Under the pieces are notes generated by a model that had not been told where the DNA came from, searched no databases, and saw only the letters and a list, made by a program, of their open reading frames with translations. DNA of 64,000 nt from Bacteroides coprosuis DSM 18011 (GTDB taxonomy: Bacteria; Bacteroidota; Bacteroidia; Bacteroidales; Bacteroidaceae), in contig CM001167.1 of assembly GCA_000212915.1 (NCBI GenBank), forward strand, positions 1,232,780 to 1,296,779, read 5' to 3'. Below, one piece after another: positions 25,721 to 46,820 of the stretch (position 1 is its first letter; every line of letters starts with the position of its first letter). Both the position numbers and the translations under genes were made by a program.

Positions 25721-25787
25721 ATTTCTATGAGTTCGTTAACTTAGAATTCTATATAATTTTCATCTTCAATAAGAAATGATCGTATTA

Positions 25788-25842
25788 TGACACCGATAAG
25801 AGCGTACTTTGACACCGACAAGATGATGACATGTCGGTGTCA
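25788..25842 (-). repeat. 55-bp tripartite intergenic repeat, copy 3
   Basis: Units TGACACCGATAA (25788-25799), TGACACCGACAA (25810-25821) and ATGTCGGTGTCA (25831-25842), with starts 22 and 21 apart. The second and third units sit in a perfect 17-bp stem (25804-25820 with 25832-25848) that can extend outward to 25795/25857 with two mismatches. The flank GTACTT/AAGTAC differs from copy 5 (ATACGA/TCGTAT), yet both pair fully. Confidence 0.9.
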
Positions 25843-45865: not shown

Positions 45866-45873
45866 TACTTTTG
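45866..45873 (+). promoter_or_regulatory. -7 element for the queuosine precursor transporter
   Basis: TACTTTTG fits TAnnTTTG. Start near 45880 gives a leader of about 100 nt that holds the preQ1-like aptamer. Confidence 0.6.
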
Positions 45874-45941
45874 CAGTCCAATTTATAATAGTACGATGAT
45901 TTTACTCCTTATTCTCACCTTACTATATAGGTAGTAAATAT

Positions 45942-45973
45942 CCGTGTGCTTGGTAAACCACGTAAAAAACAAG
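45942..45973 (+). ncRNA. preQ1-I-like riboswitch aptamer
   Basis: H-type pseudoknot layout: P1 CGTG (45943-45946) with CACG (45959-45962); loop TGCTTGGTAAAC of 12 nt, the same length and pattern as the Bacillus queC aptamer loop (U.CU.G.UA.AC), ending in the C that would bind preQ1; then an A-rich tail TAAAAAACAAG whose CAAG (45970-45973) pairs with CTTG (45949-45952) to form P2. It ends 5 bases before the ATG of a queuosine precursor transporter, so ligand binding would block translation start. P1 has only 4 pairs. Confidence 0.7.
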
Positions 45974-45978
45974 ATGTA

Positions 45979-46659
45979 ATGAAGAAAAATGTATCCGTTT
46001 TATTCATGCTGCTCGGCATGATTTTTGTTGTGAGTTTAATTGCTTCCAACTTGTTAGAAACTAAAGTTATTGATCTTTTTGGTTTGAAAATAACTGGAGG
46101 GCTTCTTTTATTTCCTATATCTTATATCATAAATGACTGTATAGCTGAAGTTTGGGGATTTAAAAAAGCAAGACTTATTATTTGGTCTGGTTTTTTCTTA
46201 AACTTTTTTGTTGTGGCCATTGGTTATCTTACCACCATGTTGCCTGCTGCTGCAGAGTGGGATGGGGGTCCGCACTTTAATTTTATTTTTGGTTTAGCTC
46301 CTCGTATTGCATTAGCAAGTTTCCTTGCTTTTTTAGTAGGTTCTTTCTTGAATGCGTATGTCATGAGTAAGATGAAAATAGCTAGTGGAGGGAAAAACTT
46401 CTCTGCTCGTGCTATTTGGTCTACCATAGTGGGTGAAACTGCAGATTCATTGATTTTCTTTCCTATTGCATTTGGTGGACAGATGGGATGGTCATTGATT
46501 TTTAAATTGATGATCATTCAGATTTTCTTGAAATCATTCTATGAAGTATTAGTATTGCCGATTACTATTCGAGTAGTAAAATATATAAAGAAAGTAGAAG
46601 GTGTTGATGCTTATGATAGAGATATTTCTTTCAATGTATTTAAAATAAAAGATATCTAA
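45979..46659 (+). CDS. Queuosine precursor transporter (YhhQ-type)
   Basis: 226 residues from the ATG at 45979 (MKKNVSVLFMLLGM). An in-frame GTG at 45946 lies inside the riboswitch-like aptamer and is rejected. Six membrane segments. The family motifs ISYIINDCIAEVWGFKKAR and GETADSLIFFPIAF are clear. YhhQ/QPTR proteins import preQ0/preQ1 or queuine for tRNA queuosine. The neighbouring aptamer agrees with that role. A strong bidirectional terminator follows. Confidence 0.92.
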   Translation: MKKNVSVLFMLLGMIFVVSLIASNLLETKVIDLFGLKITGGLLLFPISYIINDCIAEVWGFKKARLIIWSGFFLNFFVVAIGYLTTMLPAAAEWDGGPHFNFIFGLAPRIALASFLAFLVGSFLNAYVMSKMKIASGGKNFSARAIWSTIVGETADSLIFFPIAFGGQMGWSLIFKLMIIQIFLKSFYEVLVLPITIRVVKYIKKVEGVDAYDRDISFNVFKIKDI

Positions 46660-46740: not shown

Positions 46741-46765
46741 ATAGGTCCCTGACATGATATCATCT

Positions 46766-46820
46766 TAACACCGACATGATATCATCATGACACCGACATG
46801 TTAGTTTCATATCGGTAATA
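46766..46820 (-). repeat. 55-bp tripartite intergenic repeat, copy 4
   Basis: Units TAACACCGACAT (46766-46777), TGACACCGACAT (46788-46799) and the degenerate ATATCGGTAATA (46809-46820), with starts 22 and 21 apart. The spacers differ from the other copies, but the pitch and order are kept. It lies between convergent genes, 20 bases from the rlmH stop. Confidence 0.85.

Follow-up and report, generated by a model that had tools for sequence, protein, structure and literature searches.

Introduction

The preQ1-I riboswitches form one of the smallest riboswitch classes. In class I, the ligand is read by the cytosine that immediately precedes the 3′ strand of helix P1, and a U in the loop together with an adenine in L3 completes recognition; in the aptamer of Thermoanaerobacter tengcongensis (Tte) the ceiling of the pocket is closed by a G11-C30 pair (PMC11625349; PMC10622847). 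Type I always carries UC before the P1 3′ strand and binds two preQ1 molecules (PMC8752633; PMC11625349). Type II, the form included in Rfam family RF00522, is represented by the Bacillus subtilis (Bsu) queC leader and by Tte, whose aptamer sequences have been published (PMC10639078; PMC8494917). Type III, known from the Escherichia coli yhhQ leader, has a pyrimidine-rich loop, UU atop the P1 5′ strand and an AAGG Shine-Dalgarno sequence within P2 (PMC10622847). According to a review of the class, all known types bind preQ1 although their consensus sequences differ. The review lists Bacteroidota among the phyla with type I and gives a similar distribution for type II, so that finding the class in this phylum is in itself no novelty; in a 2013 survey, whose genomes included 11 of Bacteroidaceae, preQ1 riboswitches were described as mostly limited to Firmicutes. 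Full-text literature searches turned up no publication about a preQ1 riboswitch in Bacteroides, and an earlier listing of some of the sequences is possible (McCown 2014). Here we confirm a pseudoknot before yhhQ, show that gut-type Bacteroidales conserve it and that it stands before queC as well, and conclude that it is very probably a preQ1-sensing riboswitch in a variant form missed by Rfam.

Organisation of the yhhQ leader

Within the window (the whole 64-kb stretch of DNA analysed), the element occupied the leader of a yhhQ copy whose product scored 108.1 bits for TIGR00697 (cut-off 50.95), in line with the YhhQ-type transporter named in the original prediction (Table 1). That prediction had placed the element at 45942–45973; the pseudoknot stood, but the start given for it was one base early, as P1 begins at 45943. 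Reading of the sequence bore out P1 (CGTG/CACG), the 12-nt loop, the A-rich tail and P2 (CTTG/CAAG), as well as the five bases between the end of P2 and the yhhQ ATG at 45979.

Table 1. Features of the yhhQ leader and their positions in the window.
Feature	Position	Strand	Basis or remark
TACTTTTG, Bacteroidetes-type -7 box (TAnnTTTG), inferred yhhQ promoter	45866–45873	+	sequence
P0 accessory hairpin, UUACUAU-AUAG-GUAGUAA, 7 bp, 5 nt 5′ of P1	45920–45937	+	MFE fold of 45915–45980
preQ1-I-like pseudoknot, 31 bases	45943–45973	+	direct sequence reading
P1 5′ strand, CGUG	45943–45946	+	covaries among homologues
Loop, UGCUUGGUAAAC (DNA letters TGCTTGGTAAAC), 12 nt	45947–45958	+	sequence
L1 U	45947	+	invariant in alignments A2 and A3
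P2 5′ strand, CUUG, inside the loop	45949–45952	+	pairs with CAAG 45970–45973
Putative ligand-specificity C, A just before it	45958	+	terminal AC invariant in A2 and A3
P1 3′ strand, CACG	45959–45962	+	covaries among homologues
A-rich L3, UAAAAAA	45963–45969	+	A-run invariant in A2 and A3
P2 3′ strand, CAAG	45970–45973	+	covaries with the loop; ribosome-binding-site position, 5 nt before AUG
yhhQ, queuosine precursor transporter, 226 aa, stand-alone copy, putative regulated gene	45979–46659	+	TIGR00697

A strict descriptor (four Watson-Crick pairs in P1, a loop of the form U...AC, AAAA before P2 and four Watson-Crick pairs in P2) matched a single site on both strands of the window, that at 45943–45973, and had no match in 60 simulated 64-kb sequences (first-order Markov), of which one strand each was scanned. 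The minimum free energy of the leader was unremarkable (z of 0.51 and −0.59 in two runs), as is expected of a 4-bp pseudoknot, so the evidence for the element is comparative rather than thermodynamic. TAnnTTTG is the −7 consensus of Bacteroides promoters. Many homologous leaders also had such a box 5′ of the element, in several of them only 13–16 nt before P1 (e.g., L071, L131, L134, and L148), and no sigma-70-type promoter was found in the window leader.

The search with RF00522 that the original prediction had proposed was negative at every threshold tried: in the window there was no match at gathering or permissive thresholds, nor in a 47-base search at E up to 10, and the homologues gave none either, whether at the gathering score or with E values up to 1. 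Class-wide matches were weak and all below the gathering threshold of 39 bits, which is a criterion of detection and not of structure; this genome had two of them, both at places other than the yhhQ site. The negative result fits a divergent subtype rather than an ordinary member, and the suggestion of a divergent Bacteroidetes form is thus supported by the silence of RF00522 together with the conserved, covarying pseudoknot described below.

Conservation and covariation

A protein search of GTDB genomes yielded 80 close relatives of yhhQ from Bacteroides, Phocaeicola, Mediterranea, Porphyromonas, Prevotellaceae, and Paludibacteraceae, and all 80 carried the motif directly 5′ of the start codon. 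Two forms were present: a short one, UGCUUG...CAAGA, as in the window, and a longer one, UAUUCUAG or UAUUCCAG...CAGGA, typical of most Bacteroides. In a motif-independent sample, drawn from 247 Bacteroidales genomes by searching for yhhQ homologues at the protein level only, the element was clear in 34 of 45 leaders and degenerate or expanded in two more (L160 and L164). The nine leaders without it (L151, L165–L167, and L169–L173) belonged, L151 excepted, to distant proteins with 35–43% identity. Descriptor matches in L151, L166, L167, and L173 were rejected as chance, since the loose score of 9 was reached by 185 of 960 shuffled leaders. The second yhhQ of the window's own genome (66% identical; L174, G000:C1:2148893-2150693) bore the same element in its leader and headed a yhhQ-queC-queF run, QueF being read from similarity to the L212 protein; the yhhQ of the window is an unlinked paralogue. 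A third near-match in this genome (L113) fell inside an apparent tuf coding sequence and was dismissed as chance.

Both helices covaried. Variants of P1 comprised CGUG/CACG, CGAG/CUCG, UGAG/CUCG, AGUG/CACU, AGAG/CUCU, GGGUG/CACCC, and GGGAG/CUCCC; those of P2 were CUUG/CAAG, CUAG/CUAG, and AUUG/CAAU in the short form, and UCUAG/CAGGA, CUCAG/CAGAG, and CUUAG/CAAAG, with a constant A.A mismatch, in the long form. Across 38 diverse leaders, 152 of 152 P1 cells were paired (mean 133 and maximum 144 in 10,000 shuffles) and 144 of 152 P2 cells, a value that no shuffle reached, counts that are biased somewhat towards pairing because the collecting descriptor demanded at least three of four pairs per helix. 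P1 was CGUG/CACG in 105 of 114 leaders, so that its covariation rests on nine leaders, and nearly all members had a P1 of just 4 bp. Pairing exceptions were an A.C in P1 (L022) and a C.A in P2 (L077 and L146).

A MAFFT alignment of all forms (A1) misaligned P1, and the short-P2 (A2) and long-P2 (A3) leaders were therefore aligned apart. In A2, pairs 1 and 3 of P1 changed on both sides while remaining 100% paired, and controls with slid partners collapsed. In A3, five pairs had changes in both strands; three of these belong to P2 (U-A/C-G, C-G/U-A, and C-G/U-A/U.G) and adjoin the A.A step; the covariation score of the whole structure was 0.297 vs. 0.156 when shuffled (reached in 0 of 500), with slid partners at 0.110 or less. 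P2 is hence supported independently of the inverted repeat of P1. The L1 U, the loop G, the terminal AC, and the A-run of L3 were invariant in both alignments, including the C before the P1 3′ strand to which the original prediction had assigned the ligand position; AC preceded that strand everywhere but in L161 and L163, which have CC. Conservation of the pseudoknot upstream of orthologous genes, the lack of which that prediction had named as a refutation, was thus found together with covariation of P1 and P2.

Many leaders contained a further hairpin, P0, which to our knowledge lies outside any known preQ1-I consensus. A hairpin ending 0–1 nt from P1 was present in 19 of 50 thinned leaders at p ≤ 0.05, compared with 1–5 of 50 for control anchors placed 15–90 nt upstream, and its sequence was unrelated among leaders (examples are L130, L138, L139, L143, L154, L159, and L207–L213). 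By eye, P0 was seen in seven of seven queC leaders inspected. In the window P0 does not directly abut P1, and its relevance here is accordingly moderate. Where present, P0 would probably stack under P1, either stabilising it or serving as an mRNA 5′-end element. Leaders lacking P0 often had the TAnnTTTG box 13–25 nt before P1, so that the aptamer would start near the 5′ end of the mRNA.

Linkage to queC and the queuosine pathway

A covariance model (R1) built from 23 cores of yhhQ leaders alone was run on 247 Bacteroidales genomes. Its strong matches beyond yhhQ lay in queC leaders (L207–L212), an association that the original prediction had not included, with a weak score at L213; the element preceded queC-queD-queE at L210 and queC-queF at L212, the queC identity of representatives being established by TIGR00364. 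A search by queC protein confirmed these sites and added L225 and L240, in which changes in P2 were compensated (CUUAG...CAGAG and CUCAG...CAGAG). In many other genomes queC came after a motif-bearing yhhQ. Nine listed queC genes had no visible element; the queC of L228 lies behind a motif-bearing yhhQ, past the stretch examined. A degenerate pattern matched 17 distinct places, spread over 14 of 119 genomes. Each of them was a yhhQ or queC site, and the reversed-control pattern had no match in the 119 genomes. Run on 296 Bacteroidota genomes, R1 returned nothing outside Bacteroidales under strict filters that let a known Bacteroides site (G004) go undetected; the element may thus be absent beyond the order.

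In L207, L208, and L211 the element lay approximately 86–169 nt 5′ of queC and not at the start codon. The expression platform there may be of another kind, for instance pausing, an upstream ORF, or long-range pairing. A pattern scan for intrinsic terminators came up empty in the window leader and in the queC leaders of L208 and L211; L207 had several weak terminator-like sites, which were not convincing.

Comparison with known preQ1-I types

Like the members of class I, the Bacteroidales element forms an H-type pseudoknot from P1 and P2 and has an A-rich L3, and it occurred in leaders of genes for queuosine synthesis and transport (yhhQ, queC, queC-queF, and queC-queD-queE). The L1 U, the specificity C, the L3 adenine, and the G-C pair above the pocket were all kept. 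The closest resemblance was to type II, with which it shares a similar size, the L1 U, AC before the P1 3′ strand, a loop G pairing with a C after the A-run, and the putative regulation of queuosine genes including queC. The Tte loop UCGCAGUAAC and the L162 loop UGCUUGCAAC, one of the shortest in Bacteroidales, are of equal length, with U at position 1, G at position 6 and an AC end, and GGGAG-UACUAGAAAAC-CUCCC...CUAG of L135 closely parallels AGAGG-UUCUAGCUACAC-CCUCU...CUAA of Bsu. The A.A step in the long form of P2 resembles A10/A32 of Tte. In contrast to type II, P1 of the Bacteroidales element is usually 4 bp and near-fixed as CGUG/CACG, the long P2 is UCUAG/CAGGA, P0 is frequent, and occurrence in the genomes sampled with R1 was limited to Bacteroidales; moreover, position 7 is a purine, whereas C7 of Tte forms part of the pocket ceiling.

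With type III the element has in common the putative control of yhhQ, probably translational, a very small aptamer, the AC motif, and a P2 overlapping the ribosome-binding region. However, its loops read UGCUUG, UACUUG or UAUUCUAG, the second loop base being nearly always A or G, UU followed the P1 5′ strand in L161 and L163 only, and P2 would sequester CAAGA or CAGGA. The overall fold and the pathway are those of type I as well, and the phyla reported for that type include Bacteroidota (PMC8752633; PMC11625349), but with AC instead of UC before the P1 3′ strand, binding of two ligands is not to be expected. The AC dinucleotide and the lack of a pyrimidine-rich loop place the element with type II rather than with type I or III.

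Whether this form deserves the rank of a fourth preQ1-I subtype, with its usual 4-bp P1, a P2 of its own (long, with a fixed A.A), a frequent P0 under P1 and a block of 30S loading, and acting as the main queuosine regulator in many Bacteroidales, is a proposal that we put at slightly below even odds. Should the element be a preQ1 riboswitch, queuosine uptake and synthesis in many Bacteroidales, human-gut Bacteroides included, would be controlled directly by RNA, in a form to which the current Rfam model is blind. It would offer a natural test of translational repression by a pseudoknot where Shine-Dalgarno pairing is rare, and would better the covariance model of the class.

Proposed mechanism and alternative explanations

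The reading that we favour, with a probability of roughly 0.87, is that the element is a Bacteroidales preQ1-I variant through which ample preQ1 represses the translation of yhhQ and queC. It builds on a conserved, covarying pseudoknot with invariant pocket nucleotides that adjoins the start codon and is linked exclusively to queuosine genes; the ligand and the direction of control we infer from the regulated genes and the conservation of the pocket. The yhhQ mRNA leader would fold into an H-type pseudoknot in which P1 (4–5 bp) and P2 stack and the A-rich L3 follows the minor groove of P1. Between P1 and P2 there would be a place for the ligand, most likely preQ1: the invariant C that precedes the P1 3′ strand would pair with it, and the first U of the loop and an adenine of L3 would make contact. 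Binding would lock P2 with the bases at approximately −6 to −10 before the AUG and prevent 30S loading, so that plentiful preQ1 would lower both uptake (yhhQ) and synthesis (queC, queC-queF, and queC-queDE).

Translational repression is the simplest reading given that no terminator was found and that the element ends 5 nt from the AUG. Bacteroidota ribosomes seldom use Shine-Dalgarno pairing. This makes the classical route of switching off less obvious, and a pseudoknot that blocks 30S loading likelier than competition with an anti-Shine-Dalgarno sequence. For type I, the review remarks that the pseudoknot itself appears more important than burial of the Shine-Dalgarno sequence.

The same pseudoknot could instead sense another ligand of the queuosine pathway, such as preQ0, queuine, or a guanine-like compound. 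The regulated genes, a TIGR00697 queuosine-precursor transporter and queC, the preQ0-making enzyme, would suit such a ligand too, position 7 and P2 are unlike those of Tte, and close riboswitch variants can change ligand according to the review. We nevertheless consider this improbable: the nucleotides that contact preQ1 in the structures of types I, II, and III (L1 U, specificity C, and L3 A) are all kept, and every known preQ1-I type has stayed with preQ1 despite differences in consensus.

Less probable still is that a repressor or translational regulator protein binds CGTG-N12-CACG as a DNA operator or RNA site, with no ligand-binding RNA involved. The near-invariance of P1 within the order is operator-like, and P1 is an inverted repeat in DNA; yet P2 joins the loop to the tail and covaries independently of that repeat, the element always lay on the coding strand in the leader, mostly approximately 5–10 nt from the AUG, and the A-rich linker and the terminal loop AC would be without a role in an inverted-repeat operator. 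As for a chance lookalike or a conserved N-terminal coding sequence, an open frame from an in-frame GTG at 45946 would lengthen the ORF, but the comparative data already contradict this explanation, which we regard as scarcely credible. Loop lengths of 10–16 nt, not differing by multiples of three, and the varying tails of the homologues break the frame and thus argue against coding conservation, as do the covariation and the occurrence before queC, and the strict descriptor found no match in the 60 random sequences.

Additional observations

A preQ1-I-like arrangement of another kind, AAAGG-UAUCGGAAAAC-CCUUU-AAAAAA-CCGA, was noticed in L172, approximately 120–75 nt before the match start of a distant YhhQ (35% identity). 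It pairs AAAGG with CCUUU and UCGG with CCGA, overlaps a possible N-terminal coding frame, and could be a further variant or chance. In the window, a start-stop pair, AUGUAAUG, at 45974–45981 overlaps the yhhQ start codon by one base; it is absent from most homologues and is probably due to chance. Direct repeats of 22 bases (GACATGATATCATCATAACACC and similar) occurred at 1388–1436, 25781–25823, and 46751–46800, the last of these directly past yhhQ.
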